From the NCBI RefSeq assembly GCF_003173355.1, contig NZ_QGMY01000007.1, positions 186,001 to 250,000 on the forward strand: a stretch of 64,000 nt of DNA, read 5' to 3'. Both the position numbers and the translations under genes were made by a program. Below, piece after piece: positions 17,071-30,360 of the stretch. Source of the stretch: Methanospirillum lacunae (GTDB taxonomy: Archaea; Halobacteriota; Methanomicrobia; Methanomicrobiales; Methanospirillaceae). Below the pieces are notes generated by a model. The model saw only the letters and a program-made list of their open reading frames with translations. It searched no databases and was not told the DNA's origin. Every line of letters begins with the position of its first letter. The first letter of the stretch is position 1.

Positions 17071-17784
17071 TTATGATGAACCCGGAGCTCCGCAGACTAC
17101 TGGTAATGCATCAGCTATCTCTTGCAGCATCTCTGCCGGAATCCCCATGACCATCTCTCCTTCTTCAATTCCGGAGTACTTCCGTGACCCATCGCATCCC
17201 AGCGAAAAATTAATTTTTCCGGTCAGATACACCTGGGCTGAAGCATCTGCGCATACAGACTGAATCCCGGCGAAGTTGCACGTAATTCTACCTCCAATCC
17301 GGTACAGGTTGCTTTGTGCAAGTTTCAGCATTGCTTTTGGTTTGGTGACCAGAAGAACGATGGTGGGATCAAACGGGACTTTTTCAAGCGGTGCATAGGC
17401 CATGCCGTAAGTTGCATTAGATTCAACGTGAGGGATATTGAGAATCGTCCGTTTACACGCTGCCCAGCTGTCATATTTCCCAAGTTTGTAGTAAAACTCT
17501 CCACTCTTCAGGGTAGGGGTTATCTCACGTAATCCAAGAGCCCACGACCCCCCCATACAGGCATGATTCTCACTGAGAGTGTAAAAAGTTCTACCTTCTT
17601 TTCGAGCCAGGTTCACCATCTGACAGTGGGTTATTTTCTCTTCAAGAGCAGGGACACCTTCAGGGAGATGCTCTTTCCCAGTGATGAATTTGATGGCAAC
17701 CGGAGAACCTTCGAGGTGAAGGAGTTCTTTCATAATCCTGGATATTTCAGGATAATCTATCTTGGTTCGTATGGCATCCTGCAT
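17071..17784 (-). CDS. DUF169 family protein
   Basis: A 237-aa cytoplasmic protein with the family layout: an N-terminal EGSPVAIKFI, a Cys-containing core (THCQMVNLARKEG, HACMGGSWALGL), then KPKAMLKLAQSNLYRIGG and CNFAGIQSVCADASA, and a C-terminal SLGCDGSRKYSGI. Several conserved Cys suggest a metal or redox site, but the function of DUF169 is unknown to me. It lies 88 nt downstream of the radical SAM gene and may be its distal operon partner or separately transcribed; an inverted repeat separates them. Confidence 0.85.
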   Translation of the reverse strand: MQDAIRTKIDYPEISRIMKELLHLEGSPVAIKFITGKEHLPEGVPALEEKITHCQMVNLARKEGRTFYTLSENHACMGGSWALGLREITPTLKSGEFYYKLGKYDSWAACKRTILNIPHVESNATYGMAYAPLEKVPFDPTIVLLVTKPKAMLKLAQSNLYRIGGRITCNFAGIQSVCADASAQVYLTGKINFSLGCDGSRKYSGIEEGEMVMGIPAEMLQEIADALPVVCGAPGSS

Positions 17785-17872: not shown

Positions 17873-19033
17873 TTATTCCGGGTTACCCGGACCCGGAACA
17901 AGCAGTGACTGTGCCCATACCCTGTTTGCCCAAAGGGCGCATCCACCCCCCGATTCTGAAAGCATATGATGATTAACCCTGATTTTTGCAAGGAGATCGG
18001 ATTTGAGAGCTTCACGTAACGGAATCTTTGTAACATTCACATCAGAGATCGGAGCAGCAGGACAGGGCTCAAGATCACCGGAAGGGCTAATATGGACAAA
18101 ACCTCTTCCCGCAGAGAGACAGCCTCCAAATGCTTCTTCATCACCGGGAAAACCAATGACAAGAACGGGGTACTGATCAGAAAACCTGGAGAGAATATTG
18201 TTCAATGAATTGTGTTGGTCTTGAGAAAGAACCAGGTCAGATGTTCCTTCCCCAATGGGAACATACTCCACATACGTGATCAACCGACATCCACACGAGA
18301 TCATATCTTCAACAAACCTGTCACTCGTGACTTCTGTAAAATTTTTACTGCTTACAGTAACAGAACATCCAAAAAAATTGCCATTCTGGCGAAGTAATGA
18401 GAAAGATCGTATGGCAGCCTCATATACACCGTCTGCTCTTCTTGAATCTGTTGCCTCCCGGTCGCCTTCGATACTCAGGATAGGAACGATATTTTTATAT
18501 TTCCCTATTTTTGTCGCAAGAGTGTCATCAATAAGAAGCCCGTTTGTATATATGGCAAAGGTCATGAGGGGAAACTCTCTGGCCAGCATCAGGATATCAT
18601 CTTTCCTTACCAGTGGTTCTCCTCCTGCTAATACCAGAAACGAGACGCCGAGATCGACACACTGGGAGATCAGGTTCCTGATTTCATCAGAACTCATTTC
18701 CGGTTCCATGACCGGATGCAGGGATCTCATATAGCACCCATGACAGGCAAGATTGCACTGGTGGGTCAGGCTGAGCATGACTACTGCCGGAACCTGCACG
18801 CCTTCCGCAGCCAACATCTCACGCTTTCTAGCCGCCTTTTTTTGTGCTGATAATAGCCGTGTTGCAGTCAGAAGGAGAGAGGGATCAGCCCCAACAATGC
18901 TGACCACTTTTCTGATATTTGCGGTGATACTCTGCGAAAGAATATGTGTGTAGAACCCTGGCAGCCAGTCAGGATCATGACCGGAGGCAGAACCGGTCAC
19001 CGGGGTCGAGTACTGGATCTGCTGACTACTCAT
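17873..19033 (-). CDS. Radical SAM protein with SPASM-like C-terminus
   Basis: The cluster motif C-N-L-A-C-H-G-C (about 92-99) binds the 4Fe-4S that cleaves S-adenosylmethionine; LAGGEPLV is the following GGE motif. The N-terminal 85 residues are extra. The C-terminal part has GGCLSAGRGFVHISPSGDLEPCPAAP and a late GGGCALW, giving enough cysteines for an auxiliary cluster, though not a full classical SPASM set. The substrate could be a peptide or a cofactor. The gene overlaps the EFR1 gene by 8 nt, so it is translated as part of the redox operon, and the flavodoxins upstream could supply its electrons (inference). Confidence 0.88.
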   Translation of the reverse strand: MSSQQIQYSTPVTGSASGHDPDWLPGFYTHILSQSITANIRKVVSIVGADPSLLLTATRLLSAQKKAARKREMLAAEGVQVPAVVMLSLTHQCNLACHGCYMRSLHPVMEPEMSSDEIRNLISQCVDLGVSFLVLAGGEPLVRKDDILMLAREFPLMTFAIYTNGLLIDDTLATKIGKYKNIVPILSIEGDREATDSRRADGVYEAAIRSFSLLRQNGNFFGCSVTVSSKNFTEVTSDRFVEDMISCGCRLITYVEYVPIGEGTSDLVLSQDQHNSLNNILSRFSDQYPVLVIGFPGDEEAFGGCLSAGRGFVHISPSGDLEPCPAAPISDVNVTKIPLREALKSDLLAKIRVNHHMLSESGGGCALWANRVWAQSLLVPGPGNPE

Positions 19034-19835
19034 GTATCAGTTCCTTTTGTCTGCGTATATCTGCAGGAGTGACTGACGGGTGGTGATACCGTCCTCTTCC
19101 TTCTGTTCCAAGCATCATTTTCAGATTGATTGCCTGAACGGGGCAGTAATTTAGACAGGCACAACAGAGTTCACACCGGTCGGCATACACAGGCAGTTTG
19201 TCATTGAGGGTAATGTTACCGGATGGACAGACAGATACACAGGTCCCACAGGAAGTACAGGCATCAGATACGGAAAATTTCTCTCCAGCATTGTGAACAT
19301 TTTTCGCAAATGGTTCATAGAGCAGGAATTGAAGAAGGGATGACAATGGAGCAATTCCCGGGCGCTTTTCTTGATTGTTTCTGATTTCTTCAGCTATCAG
19401 GGAACAATCTTTTTCTGCTTTCGTAAGAATGGACCGCTGTTTTTCACCGGTAGGAGGTGAACTGATTGGAGGAAAGTTTGCAGGCATCTTTACCATAAAC
19501 CCTGCATTAATCCCTCTGCCATTGCGAGACTTCACAGCATGATCAATCGTCTTAAGGGCGGATGCACCGGTTCCCCCAAGGGTCAGAACTGCAAAGAGAT
19601 ACGAATCTGCGAAGATGGAAAGCCCATGCAGGAATTCCCGGACCATGACCGGGATGCCCATGTCATACACAGGGCAGCATATCCCGATCCGACCTTCAGG
19701 CACAGTGGTATCCTTCTTCTCATTCATCAGGGCAGCAATTGGAACAAGATCAGTATCTCCAAGAATTGTGGCAATGTTCTTTGCAACAACCAGGGAATTT
19801 CCGGTTCCAGTGAAATAATAGATCGTCGTCTTCAT
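19026..19835 (-). CDS. EFR1-type flavodoxin-ferredoxin protein
   Basis: A fusion of a flavodoxin domain (about 1-165, FMN loop FTGTGNS) and a double 4Fe-4S ferredoxin: C-T-S-C-G-T-C-V-S-V-C-P and C-E-L-C-C-A-C-L-N-Y-C-P (about 195-235). EFR1-family proteins move electrons between FMN and Fe-S partners in anaerobes. Start and stop overlaps (ATGA with the flavodoxin, 8 nt with the radical SAM gene) show tight coupling. The second cluster has an extra Cys (C-C-A-C). The electron partner is not known from sequence. Confidence 0.92.
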   Translation of the reverse strand: MKTTIYYFTGTGNSLVVAKNIATILGDTDLVPIAALMNEKKDTTVPEGRIGICCPVYDMGIPVMVREFLHGLSIFADSYLFAVLTLGGTGASALKTIDHAVKSRNGRGINAGFMVKMPANFPPISSPPTGEKQRSILTKAEKDCSLIAEEIRNNQEKRPGIAPLSSLLQFLLYEPFAKNVHNAGEKFSVSDACTSCGTCVSVCPSGNITLNDKLPVYADRCELCCACLNYCPVQAINLKMMLGTEGRGRYHHPSVTPADIRRQKELIHE

Positions 19836-20323
19836 GCTATTCCATCGACAGAACGAATTTTTTCGATAAGAGGGGTAATTGCTTGATCGCTAATTACAGC
19901 GTGCTTGTCAAGAATTCCTTCTCCAACAGGGATCAGCCCTGCATCAGTGACACGTGATCTCAGCAGAGTAATAGCCTGTTCACCACTTTTCGCATCATTA
20001 CAGGTAACAATCAGAAACACTCGTTTTCCATCTTCTCCAGATAGTGCCTTGAGTGCCCCATTCATGACAGGGGTGGGCTTTCCTGCCCAAACAGGGCATG
20101 CGAGAACCACAAGGTCTGCATCGTCAAGGGCGATTGAAGCAGGGGTGACTAAATCTGCTGTGCCTGTCAATGCACGATAGCATCCTTTCGTTACTGCTGA
20201 AAGAGTAGAATACTGCTGATTCGGGACGACTTCGATAAGATCTCCTCCAATCTTGTGGTGAATCTTCTCTACTATTATCCTGGTTTTTCCTGAATGTGAA
20301 TGATAGATGACAGTGATCTTCAT
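19832..20323 (-). CDS. Flavodoxin
   Basis: A 163-aa single-domain flavodoxin with the FMN-phosphate loop HSHSGKTR and the flavin-flanking CPVWAGKPTPV. It is clearly paralogous to the C-terminal half of the ArsR fusion upstream: both have GGDLIE followed about 20 residues later by a TKGC or TTGC turn, then VTP and PVWAxKP. It is second gene of the operon, 58 nt after the fusion and overlapping the next gene by 4 nt. Confidence 0.92.
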   Translation of the reverse strand: MKITVIYHSHSGKTRIIVEKIHHKIGGDLIEVVPNQQYSTLSAVTKGCYRALTGTADLVTPASIALDDADLVVLACPVWAGKPTPVMNGALKALSGEDGKRVFLIVTCNDAKSGEQAITLLRSRVTDAGLIPVGEGILDKHAVISDQAITPLIEKIRSVDGIA

Positions 20324-20381
20324 GATGGTCAGTCTCTCTTTTTGTATGAGTTCTTTCTGGTTGGATCAATTTCGTTACGGT

Positions 20382-21239
20382 TTATGTCTGATATGCCTCG
20401 ATGATCATCCTGATCAGTTCCATTACATGATGTGAATCCTCTGTTTCACGCCGGGAAAATGCTGCCTCCCCCGCAACAACAACTCCTTTTTCTTCCAGAT
20501 TTTTCTTGAGTATCGGAAGACAATGACCAGGATTACTGCTGTACGTGGTGCACACAAACGCCTTCTTTCCTGCACATCCGATTAATCCTGAAACTAGGGA
20601 GTTTGCAGCAGGAGCAGGTTTCCATGCCCACACAGGGGTTGCAATCACCAGGAGGTCATACGCAGATACATCGATGGTATCAGGTGTAACCTGATCCTTC
20701 TCTTCATTGCGGGAGCGAAGACATCCGGTTGTGAACGCAGTGAAAGACCTGTATTTTTTCAAAGTGTGAATTTCAATGAGATCCCCACCGCATACTTCCT
20801 GAACCTTCTCCATCAGACCCCGGGTAATCCCGGAATAGGAGTAATAAATGATAGCGATGTTAAGAGGACCTTCGGGAATTTTTTCTCTTACTAACTGCTG
20901 GTTACATCGTGAGAGCACGATGGAACGCACCTGTTCGAATTGCCCTGCTATCTGAACCATGCGGGCACGATTCAGGGTAAAATTTACGTGAAAACCCACA
21001 CGTTCCGACTCAACAAGCCCATCTGATTTGAGCAGTTTGAGATGTTGTGAAACGGCAGGTTGAGATATACCTACGCGTGCAGCCAGGTCAGATACACCTA
21101 ATGTTCCGGTTGTATCTGTCGCCAGATGAAAGAGGATACGAAGCCGGTTTGCATCGCTCAGGACTTTGAATGCCTCTGCAAGATCTCGAACCTGTGGACA
21201 TTCATCAGGAGCGTTGTCTTCAGGAACTTCTGCTGCCAT
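20382..21239 (-). CDS. ArsR-family repressor fused to a flavodoxin domain
   Basis: 285 aa. Residues about 18-105 form an ArsR winged helix (FKVLSDANRLRILFHL, then VSDLAARVGISQPAVSQHLKLL as recognition helix, LVESERVG wing). After a helical linker, residues about 128-280 are a flavodoxin: FMN loop YSYSGITR and ATPVWAWKPAPA. No ArsR metal-site cysteines are seen in the expected CxC position. The domain order suggests a DNA-binding protein whose grip depends on flavin redox state or on a partner flavoprotein (inference). It is first gene of the operon and probably self-regulating. No ribosome site is present; TATA spacing fits a leaderless start. Confidence 0.88.
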   Translation of the reverse strand: MAAEVPEDNAPDECPQVRDLAEAFKVLSDANRLRILFHLATDTTGTLGVSDLAARVGISQPAVSQHLKLLKSDGLVESERVGFHVNFTLNRARMVQIAGQFEQVRSIVLSRCNQQLVREKIPEGPLNIAIIYYSYSGITRGLMEKVQEVCGGDLIEIHTLKKYRSFTAFTTGCLRSRNEEKDQVTPDTIDVSAYDLLVIATPVWAWKPAPAANSLVSGLIGCAGKKAFVCTTYSSNPGHCLPILKKNLEEKGVVVAGEAAFSRRETEDSHHVMELIRMIIEAYQT

Positions 21240-21257
21240 GAAGTGTATAACTAATTA

Positions 21258-21272
21258 CTTATAGTCTTATAA
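21258..21272 (-). promoter_or_regulatory. Promoter of the ArsR-flavodoxin operon
   Basis: On the plus strand CTTATAG (21258-21264) and CTTATAA (21266-21272) form a direct repeat. Read on the minus strand, TTATAAG lies 27-33 nt before the ATG, the position of a TATA box for a transcript starting at the start codon. The repeated element overlapping the TATA box is a plausible binding site for the encoded repressor. Confidence 0.45.
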
Positions 21273-21382
21273 CAAATTTCTGTATGGTGCTGCGGGGCCT
21301 GACATGAGACTGAGAACCGGTACATACTACCGCTGATACCCTCCACCTCCTATAATATAAGCACTCAGTCTATTCTGCACGA

Positions 21383-24755: not shown

Positions 24756-25340
24756 TCACACAATACCATTTCTTTTGGCAATCAGTTTTTTTCCTGCAGA
24801 CAATGCAGCAAGAATGAGAGCGATAATGATCAACAACATCGTTGAGATATTGCTAACAAATTTGAGTTTTGTAAATACTGAGGCAACAATCACAATCTCC
24901 GGGTAATGAACCGGATAAAGGAGGAGAACTGCAACAAAGCAGAGATTCTCAATGATATCTGCAATTCCGCCTATCACCGGGATGATAATCAGACCCTGAA
25001 GTTCTTCTCTGCACGGGTACAGGTACCGGAGAAGAGAACTCAGAGTTATTGCAAAGAAGAAGAGGTAACATATGGAAAATATGGTATCAAGAGGAAGGAT
25101 AATTGAGAGCCAGAAATCCCTGCTGATCTGACCAAATGCATCAATAAGAGAGTATACAGAAAGGGGCGAATACCCAAAAGAAAGGTCAGGAACTTCAAGA
25201 CCACCAGTGAAGGCAGAAAGCTCACGGGTTCCAAGGGGTCTGCCTGTTGAAGCAAAAAAAGAGAGAAGGAACAGGATGGTAATGATCAGATACGATGGCC
25301 ATGATGAGAGGCGTCTGATGATGCCAATAAGATGAGCCAT
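24756..25340 (-). CDS. Membrane protein in the TetR operon
   Basis: About 194 aa with four to five hydrophobic helices; no family recognised. AGGAG at 25350-25354 lies 9 nt before the ATG at 25340, which I prefer. The in-frame ATG at 25394 would overlap the TetR gene by 20 nt. It is last gene of a three-gene unit with the membrane Fe-S protein and TetR repressor, so it is probably induced with them. Confidence 0.7.
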   Translation of the reverse strand: MAHLIGIIRRLSSWPSYLIITILFLLSFFASTGRPLGTRELSAFTGGLEVPDLSFGYSPLSVYSLIDAFGQISRDFWLSIILPLDTIFSICYLFFFAITLSSLLRYLYPCREELQGLIIIPVIGGIADIIENLCFVAVLLLYPVHYPEIVIVASVFTKLKFVSNISTMLLIIIALILAALSAGKKLIAKRNGIV

Positions 25341-25374
25341 CCAGAAGATCTCCTGACTTTCGTTTTTCTGATTG

Positions 25375-26037
25375 TTACACATCAATACTTCCATTCCCCC
25401 GGACTATGGATTCAATAAGATTAAGATAGTGAGAGATGAGGAGATCTTCATCAATATCACGCCTTTTCAGTGACCATACAAATTCAGGACTTTTATCCAT
25501 CACGCTGCTGATCATCATTCTGACGATGATCGCAAGTTCGATGGGATCGATATCGCTCCTGATAGACCCATCCTCTACTCCACTTTCAACAATATCTTCT
25601 GTAAGGCTAATCATGGCTTCAGAGTGTGAGATGAATTCAGTTACCTCGTCGTTATAACTCTCCCTTTGATCAAGAGAGAAACGTCCTGATTTAAAGAGGA
25701 GGATCATTGAACGGTACCCGGGATATTCGCGTGAAAACCTGATACCCGCCATCCCCAGTGCTGTCAACTGACTGATTGCAGGACCCTCGCACTCATGTAC
25801 TGCATCACTGATTTTCTGATGGAAGAGTTTGATTCCCTGTAGGACTATGGTAAAGTATAAGGCCTCCTTATTTTTAAAATAGAAAAAAATTGTCCCTTTT
25901 GAGAGTTCTGCTTCGTTCGCAATCTGCTCCATGGAGACTTGATCATACCCGTATTCAAAAAAAAGATGTTCAGCTGCAGATATGATCTGCATTCTTCGCT
26001 CTTCCCGCTCCCGTTCTTTGCGCTCGGTAATCGTCAT
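25375..26037 (-). CDS. TetR-family repressor
   Basis: The N-terminal winged/helix-turn-helix region is typical: RRMQIISAAEHLFFEYGYDQ, then SMEQIANEAELSKGTIFFYFKNKEALYF. The C-terminal 140 residues form the ligand-binding helical domain, like the C-terminal domains of AcrR-type regulators. The N-terminus is very charged (KEREREERR). It sits second in the unit, 9 nt after the membrane Fe-S gene. A TTGACC palindrome upstream of the operon is the likely operator. The ligand is unknown. Confidence 0.9.
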   Translation of the reverse strand: MTITERKEREREERRMQIISAAEHLFFEYGYDQVSMEQIANEAELSKGTIFFYFKNKEALYFTIVLQGIKLFHQKISDAVHECEGPAISQLTALGMAGIRFSREYPGYRSMILLFKSGRFSLDQRESYNDEVTEFISHSEAMISLTEDIVESGVEDGSIRSDIDPIELAIIVRMMISSVMDKSPEFVWSLKRRDIDEDLLISHYLNLIESIVRGNGSIDV

Positions 26038-26046
26038 GAAAGGATG

Positions 26047-26772
26047 TTAATTCCTGAAGTCATACGTAATCGCATTTTTAGGGCAGATATCAGAGCATGA
26101 GGCGCAGAGAATACATTCGGTATTTTCCATCTGCCCCTTTTCCACCATCTCTTTAACGTCCAGTCCCATCGGACATACCGTGGAACACCGGCTACATCCG
26201 GTGCAGAGATTATTATCACCTGATAAATGAAGGGCAGGCCATCTGAAGAGATTGCGGACCTTTCTACCAATGATTAATAAGACACAGGTAGGGCAGATGT
26301 AATGACAGAAACCCCTCTTTCCTGATATTATGGCAAACAGAAAAATGCCGCCAAAGATTATGAAGTAGACCAGATACGAGATCGGTTCGGTGAGGGAGAC
26401 TCCGGAGGTTGTACTGTAGAAGATATTTACTGAATGGATACCTCCTGCAGAGAGTAGTGTGGAAATAATCAGGATAACCCAGAACACCCATACACCGTAT
26501 TTGATGAGGTTGAGTCGTCCTCCGCTAACCGGTTTATCCTGTATTCCTTCACAAAGTTCCTGAAATCCACCCATGGGGCAGAGCCAACCGCACCAGAACC
26601 TGCCGAGGATCAGTGAAGACAGAAATGTTATGATAAACAGGATCATGCTCCCGGTGGCTATCCCTTCAGATGTGCCCATCAAGAGGATGATTGGCGATAC
26701 ATAGAACAGAGTTGCCGGTATGCTTGTAAAAAGCAGAAGAATCAATGCCTTCCGCATCTGTTGGCGTTTCAT
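26047..26772 (-). CDS. Membrane 4Fe-4S protein (NapH/CcoG-like)
   Basis: About 241 aa with four to five TM segments. It has GRFWCGWLCPMGGFQELCE and KRGFCHYICPTC, the twin CxxxCP motifs of NapH-type membrane proteins, then two ferredoxin clusters C-T-G-C-S-R-C-S-T-V-C-P and C-I-L-C-A-S-C-S-D-I-C-P. These proteins carry electrons from quinol or soluble donors to Fe-S or periplasmic partners. ATG 26772 has AAGGGA at good distance; the ATG at 26778 is too close to it. It is first gene of the TetR unit. Confidence 0.88.
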   Translation of the reverse strand: MKRQQMRKALILLLFTSIPATLFYVSPIILLMGTSEGIATGSMILFIITFLSSLILGRFWCGWLCPMGGFQELCEGIQDKPVSGGRLNLIKYGVWVFWVILIISTLLSAGGIHSVNIFYSTTSGVSLTEPISYLVYFIIFGGIFLFAIISGKRGFCHYICPTCVLLIIGRKVRNLFRWPALHLSGDNNLCTGCSRCSTVCPMGLDVKEMVEKGQMENTECILCASCSDICPKNAITYDFRN

Positions 26773-26841
26773 GACCATTCCCTTCCATTATGCCATATAT
26801 CAAAAGTGTCCAGATTCATCATACCAATTCACAACATAATT

Positions 26842-29718: not shown

Positions 29719-30360
29719 TCAGGAGTCCACCGGCTTTTCAAGAATTATTGTATATGAAAACCGGTTTCCAGAAAATTCTTTCACCCTGAATCCTACACCC
29801 TCTGCAAGCTCTGTTACAGTGGAGCGTGACTGAAAATGTGGATCCCGGATCGTCTCCTCTACAAGGAGGAGACCGCCTTGCTTTAACGTTTTGAAAAGGC
29901 TTTCCATCGCAGTTTCCCGGTTTGGGATCTCTCCAAGGACAGTAATCAGTACAGCCCGATCATATTTTTCAGATGGAAGGTCGATGTTGCCTATTCCCCC
30001 CTGAATGAAGGATATATTGAAGATTTTATTTTTGTCTGCACGTTCACGGACTATGTCAAGCATCCCATCCTGAAGGTCCATTGCGGTGACAGTTCCATCA
30101 GGTCCGACTGCTGCTGCCAGTGGAATTGAGAGTCTCCCAGGACCGCAACCGGCATCAAGCACCTGCATACCAGGTTTGAGAGACAGATTTGTTATTGTTC
30201 TCCGGGTCCGGGAACTCACTCCTTTTCCTGATGAAGGATCAAGAAGCCACCTCATCCACACCGGACAGGGAAGTGCAGTTCGCCGGGATGCGAACCTCCA
30301 GGCAAGACACGAGAGGAGAAGAATCAAGATGAGAAGGATCAGGAGGATTGTCAGGGTCAT
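29719..30360 (-). CDS. Membrane-anchored class I SAM methyltransferase
   Basis: A 213-aa protein with one N-terminal hydrophobic helix (about 2-22), then the Rossmann methyltransferase: VLDAGCGPGRLSIPLA (SAM-binding motif I), TAMDLQDGMLDIV (motif II), FIQGGIGNIDL, and KQGGLLLVEETI. The substrate is unknown. Family members with a TM helix often modify lipids or quinones, which is only a suggestion. It is convergent with the transglutaminase-like gene. Confidence 0.88.
   Translation of the reverse strand: MTLTILLILLILILLLSCLAWRFASRRTALPCPVWMRWLLDPSSGKGVSSRTRRTITNLSLKPGMQVLDAGCGPGRLSIPLAAAVGPDGTVTAMDLQDGMLDIVRERADKNKIFNISFIQGGIGNIDLPSEKYDRAVLITVLGEIPNRETAMESLFKTLKQGGLLLVEETIRDPHFQSRSTVTELAEGVGFRVKEFSGNRFSYTIILEKPVDS

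Follow-up and report, generated by a model that had tools for sequence, protein, structure and literature searches.

Which signal could a repressor read through a flavodoxin domain, and which genes would it control in doing so? The question is raised by the window, a stretch of 64,000 nucleotides (nt) from Methanospirillum lacunae (contig NZ_QGMY01000007.1, positions 186,001 to 250,000, of assembly GCF_003173355.1; the analysed genome comprises 3.74 Mb in 25 contigs), in which a single reading frame of 285 amino acids (aa) joins an ArsR-type winged helix to a flavodoxin domain. On the minus strand this gene is followed by the flavodoxin-like gene FLD2, an EFR1-family ferredoxin gene and a radical S-adenosylmethionine (SAM) gene (coordinates in Table 1). 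A sequence-only reading of the locus had proposed that the fusion controls its own electron-transfer operon by sensing either the redox state of flavin mononucleotide (FMN) or the neighbouring flavodoxin. The fusion, a candidate operator and the operon all have support at the level of sequence, and by a narrow preference we regard the protein as a one-component autorepressor of its redox operon that senses through the flavodoxin domain.

Both domain profiles score above their cut-offs. The winged helix (residues ~20-100) matches HTH_5 (PF01022; E = 2.7e-12, 46.8 bits against a cut-off of 22) and the ArsR/SmtB metalloregulator profile NF033788 (75.7 bits against 55); after a helix and linker, the flavodoxin domain (~125-285) matches Flavodoxin_4 (E = 6.2e-6, 26.2 bits against 24). 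The HTH_5 and NF033788 matches place the regulator in the ArsR/SmtB family, of which it lacks the classical metal sites. As had been noticed from the sequence, the usual metal-site cysteines are missing: an alignment of 16 orthologues contains neither the CxC motif of alpha-3 nor the DxH..HxxE motif of alpha-5, both of which are typical of ArsR/SmtB proteins, not obligatory. The helix-turn-helix segment S59-K68 is invariant in the orthologue alignment. An AlphaFold2 model built from 16 orthologues (mean predicted local distance difference test score 82.8, predicted template modelling (pTM) score 0.61) contains a long helix (residues 91-120) between an ArsR fold and a flavodoxin fold. The flavodoxin part matches 4j8p and 4ici (Z 18.3) and the FMN-bound 3klb (17.7) and 3edo (17.6), with root-mean-square deviations of 2.1-2.5 Å over 143-153 residues, and a second structure search with the fusion model gave only flavodoxin-type proteins among the matches listed. 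These four flavoproteins share the fold and the phosphate-loop and W-loop motifs with the fused domain, but are standalone proteins without a DNA-binding domain. The flavin site itself is kept: S134, G137 and T139 of the phosphate loop, P202, V203 and W204 of the aromatic W-loop, and T232 are 100% conserved in 47 fusions and likewise in nearly all standalone relatives. The site therefore appears to be under selection, and on these residues the fusion protein is likely to bind FMN.

Could the fusion be an assembly artefact or a chance reading frame? The 47 orthologous full-length fusions rule this out. Full-length fusions occur in 16 of 61 relatives; across the order, 49 of 232 Methanomicrobiales genomes match most of the fusion length, two of them (G061 and G062) with split pairs, which leaves 47 true fusions in as many species, Methanoregula and Methanoculleus metagenome-assembled genomes being among the named members. 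No fusion was found outside Methanomicrobiales in a 393-genome sample of the phylum (E ≤ 1e-60), and a scan of 85,000 species placed fusions solely in this order among the matches listed, so that rare or independent bacterial fusions may exist; the bacterial candidate L082 proved to be two tandem ArsR genes. In the flavodoxin-domain tree the 47 fusions form a single clade (support 0.984) whose sister is the Methanospirillum FLD2 group (0.979), and the flavodoxins of unfused pairs are placed elsewhere. The architecture therefore appears, most simply, to have arisen once, and the same pairing also exists unfused. FLD2, which had been read as a paralogue of the fused domain, aligns with it over 156 aa at 33% identity (E = 2e-30), and the motifs noted before (GGDLIE, TKGC/TTGC, VTP and PVWAxKP) follow one another alike in both.

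In G061 and G062 a 115-aa ArsR gene ends in a TGA stop and is followed by three bases (ATT) and a separate flavodoxin start; G071 has a comparable unfused neighbourhood. These adjacent pairs tie the two domains functionally. Separate adjacent ArsR and flavodoxin genes were seen at L237:5440-6276, L238:5686-6522 and L239:428-1349. In L237 and L238 the flavodoxin starts three bases past the ArsR stop, and an AT-rich palindrome, AATATAATTATATT, lies upstream.

As to the genes controlled, the DNA ahead of the fusion is informative. Across genera an ATATAAG block is followed by a near-palindrome with the consensus TATAAGYAWAYRCTTATAYA, which ends 5-8 nt ahead of the start codon in most members; farther upstream there is no conservation between genera. 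Exact TATAAGYAWAYRCTTATAYA sites number 28 in the 232 genomes, one per genome, against none for the reversed pattern and about 0.01-0.24 expected by chance in this much sequence, depending on G+C content. Each of the 28 precedes a fusion gene and shares its strand, and 27 of them are 5-16 nt from the aligned fusion; the site in G084, where the N-terminus is masked, lies 93 nt from the aligned part. Methanospirillum members have variants of the consensus, that of the window being TATAAGTAATTAGTTATA, with 16 of 18 positions symmetric. It falls inside 21240-21280, the region to which the sequence-only reading had assigned binding by the fusion. Conservation and position together make control of its own operon by the fusion protein very probable. 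No further site occurs in the window's genome at 0-1 mismatches, and up to 3 mismatches give fewer sites than the reversed control; with no excess of near matches a wider regulon there was rejected, and the single site thus suggests an autoregulator dedicated to its own locus.

The proposed association with genes for electron transfer and a radical SAM enzyme also extends beyond the window. Redox genes lie behind every one of the 37 fusions that have 4.5 kb or more of downstream sequence: EFR1 (31), radical SAM (28), a NapH-like membrane iron-sulfur (Fe-S) protein (21), a second flavodoxin (19), the flavodoxin family FLD6 (15) and FMN reductase (7). At 36 standalone-flavodoxin loci the counts are 0 for EFR1, 1 for radical SAM and 3 for NapH, a large contrast with controls that are not a matched sample, since they represent different genomes within the order and in part overlap. 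The expectation that homologues sit with flavodoxin-type genes is borne out. The adjacent flavodoxin belongs to differing lineages between genera, and roughly half of the operons gave no match for one, so that sensing through contact with the neighbouring flavodoxin is not general. The sole pairing of a standalone flavodoxin relative with a radical SAM homologue among the 36 loci is in G057, a genome without the fusion, where the two (41% identity for the radical SAM homologue) lie within 4 kb (L054:5351-9394). In L206 and L212 a homologue of the window's methyltransferase gene at 29719-30360 stands beside or just downstream of the fusion.

How might such a switch operate? The scheme that we infer involves a dimer, bound FMN, a redox signal and a direction of switching. 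The protein probably acts as a homodimer on a palindromic operator, with which helix 91-120 and the conserved palindrome fit. The ArsR-type dimer would form via the alpha-1/alpha-5 interface, place both winged helices on the TATAAG...CTTATA palindrome between TATA element and start codon, and thereby keep its own redox operon from being transcribed. The flavodoxin domain, joined to the DNA-binding domain by the long helix, would most likely hold FMN and equilibrate with the cell's low-potential carriers, namely flavodoxin and EFR1. If the redox state or the occupancy of the flavin changed, the linker, which carries the invariant Cys112, would relay this so as to release or tighten DNA binding, and flavodoxins, ferredoxins, the membrane Fe-S protein and the radical SAM enzyme would be produced on demand. 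We lean towards the flavodoxin domain being the sensor; that the signal is the redox state of its flavin is plausible, with almost as much to be said for it as against. Tentatively, the protein would represent a new class of one-component factor, in which an FMN flavodoxin serves as sensor and a DNA-binding dimer, equilibrating with the low-potential carrier pool, sets the expression of carriers and radical SAM enzyme.

Known regulators offer partial parallels. MsvR, a cysteine-dependent redox regulator and autorepressor of methanogens whose own promoter contains a conserved inverted repeat, is a measured precedent for repression (PMC3729527). It is likewise a one-component regulator with an ArsR-like helix-turn-helix and dimerisation interface, a C-terminal sensor domain and a link to redox genes; however, it senses through a cysteine-containing V4R domain instead of a flavodoxin domain, and its operator is TTCGTA-N4-TACGAA, whereas the repeat upstream of the fusion is TATAAG...CTTATA. 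The fusion is not an MsvR: it scores 15.6 bits against the MsvR model NF053755 (cut-off 220), over residues 23-79 in the helix-turn-helix part only, and no V4R is among its listed domain-profile matches. The ArsR/SmtB metalloregulators SmtB, CzrA, NolR, BigR and TsoR have the same winged-helix fold and family profile, but the fusion lacks the alpha-3/alpha-5 ligands and adds a flavodoxin domain of ~160 residues to a family whose solved relatives comprise ~100-120 aa. In PutA, flavin state controls DNA binding. As a flavoenzyme and autogenous repressor of its own operon, PutA provides a precedent, yet its ribbon-helix-helix and proline dehydrogenase domains are unrelated to those of the fusion, and it is driven by substrate. 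Repression of its own regulon by this flavoprotein has been described (PMC5293562). Our literature search found no paper with both 'ArsR family' and 'flavodoxin domain'.

The main rival to a flavin sensor is a cysteine or metal sensor, in which Cys112 would form a disulfide or persulfide or bind a metal(loid), in many members alongside an N-terminal four-cysteine Fe-S or zinc site, and the flavodoxin domain would merely stabilise, dock or reduce. Cys112, at the end of the long helix, is present in 47/47 fusions, with an equivalent in the split ArsR proteins; an N-terminal CxxCxxCxxxC occurs in 27/47, and both the metalloregulator profile match and the cysteine-dependent MsvR (PMC3729527) lend the idea some weight. 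However, the N-terminal motif is partial or absent in 20/47, including the window copy with its one remaining cysteine, and is thus dispensable in some members; the classical metal motifs are missing, and the full conservation of the flavin site would need another reason. We consider this sensor unlikely, if the most serious of the alternatives. The motif, which resembles an Fe-S or zinc site, was noticed among the orthologue N-termini of L037, L039, L211-L224 and L226-L232; it is eroded in the window lineage and several others.

The protein might instead register whether FMN is present (apo against holo) or whether a partner such as EFR1 or the radical SAM enzyme is bound, so that product abundance feeds back and redox potential goes unsensed. 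The fused domain is closely related to the operon's own carrier, and the operon proteins are natural binding partners; still, an adjacent flavodoxin that varies in lineage by genus and is often not found, together with the lack of any identified docking feature, makes this improbable. A bifunctional electron carrier, whose flavodoxin domain serves the pathway and whose ArsR part provides constitutive autoregulation without a signal, would account for the carrier features that the domain retains and for an operon that encodes the remainder of the electron chain. Many of the same operons encode separate flavodoxins, however, and regulatory coupling is the better fit to one conserved architecture that comes with a matched operator, so that we give this explanation very little credence.

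Several points weigh against the autorepressor with a flavodoxin sensor that we prefer. The window variant TATAAGTAATTAGTTATA is the sole exact site in its own genome, and what speaks for its role there is position and homology. The palindrome by itself does not exceed dinucleotide shuffles for several single sequences, and the evidence consists instead in conservation and genome-wide exclusivity. Repression instead of activation is favoured from site position only, the operator lying between a probable TATA element and the start codon. The placement of the two domains relative to each other is uncertain in the model, as its pTM score indicates. The conserved cysteines (Cys112, and the N-terminal four where present) could be the real sensor, and the flavodoxin domain could be a carrier or scaffold instead. 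The case as a whole is built on sequence and modelling.

The features of the locus are collected in Table 1. A gap of 58 nt separates the fusion gene from FLD2; FLD2 overlaps the EFR1 gene by 4 nt, which in turn overlaps the radical SAM gene by 8 nt, as had been stated from the sequence. The EFR1 product passes NF038196 (229.6 bits, cut-off 75), and the radical SAM product passes PF04055 (55.8 bits, cut-off 29.5; E = 8.2e-15). In the latter the CxxxCxxC cluster cysteines C93, C97 and C100 are invariant among 22 homologues, as are the C-terminal cysteines 305, 324 and 365. It falls below the cut-off of every curated subfamily among the NCBIfam profiles; the heme-pathway identities AhbD and NirJ were rejected on equivalog scores of 85.3 against 500 and 70.4 against 515.45 bits. 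The best fold matches of its model are SuiB, SkfB, viperin, anSME, MoaA and PqqE, by which the substrate is not settled.

Table 1. Positions of the operon genes and predicted control elements within the window
Feature	Positions	Strand	Basis
ArsR-flavodoxin fusion regulator, 285 aa, single frame	20382-21239	-	Open reading frame and domain profiles, alignment, model
Flavodoxin-like FLD2, 163 aa, paralogue of the fused domain	19832-20323	-	Profile, alignment, tree
EFR1-family ferredoxin, 269 aa; flavodoxin-like N-terminus and two 4Fe-4S motifs	19026-19835	-	NF038196
Radical SAM protein, 386 aa	17873-19033	-	Profiles, alignment, fold search
DUF169 protein, 88 nt past the radical SAM gene; operon membership uncertain	17071-17784	-	Profile
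Predicted operator, near-palindrome TATAAGTAATTAGTTATA, ending 6 nt ahead of the ATG	21246-21263	-	Conservation
Probable TATA element TTATAAG, directly upstream of the predicted operator	21266-21272	-	Inferred from position and the conserved ATATAAG block

The DUF169 gene adjoins the operon in only three close Methanospirillum genomes and was rejected as a general member. On the other side, a divergent CxxCxxCC-type gene (PF03692; 21383-21919, plus strand) shares a 143-nt intergenic region with the fusion and overlaps an MFS gene at its 3' end. Farther away, the minus strand of the window carries a cluster at 24756-26778 in which a TetR regulator gene (25375-26037) is flanked by genes for a NapH-like membrane Fe-S protein (26047-26778) and for a membrane protein with no match in Pfam (24756-25394). 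Many Methanoregula relatives have homologues of the latter two downstream of the fusion, next to the radical SAM gene; the window cluster may therefore belong to the same system, here under another regulator.

To our knowledge, the ways in which strict anaerobes monitor the state of their low-potential carriers are poorly understood. What is new here is a conserved, nearly private palindrome ahead of the fusion genes. The presumed sensor is an electron carrier joined to a repressor, its predicted operator is known to the base and its operon is defined. The locus also offers a way into an uncharacterised family of radical SAM proteins of Methanomicrobiales and into the electron-donor chain dedicated to it. 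The arrangement suggests that methanogens switch electron-transfer genes by direct reading of an electron carrier, which, if true, would couple the supply of reductant directly to gene expression in these organisms.

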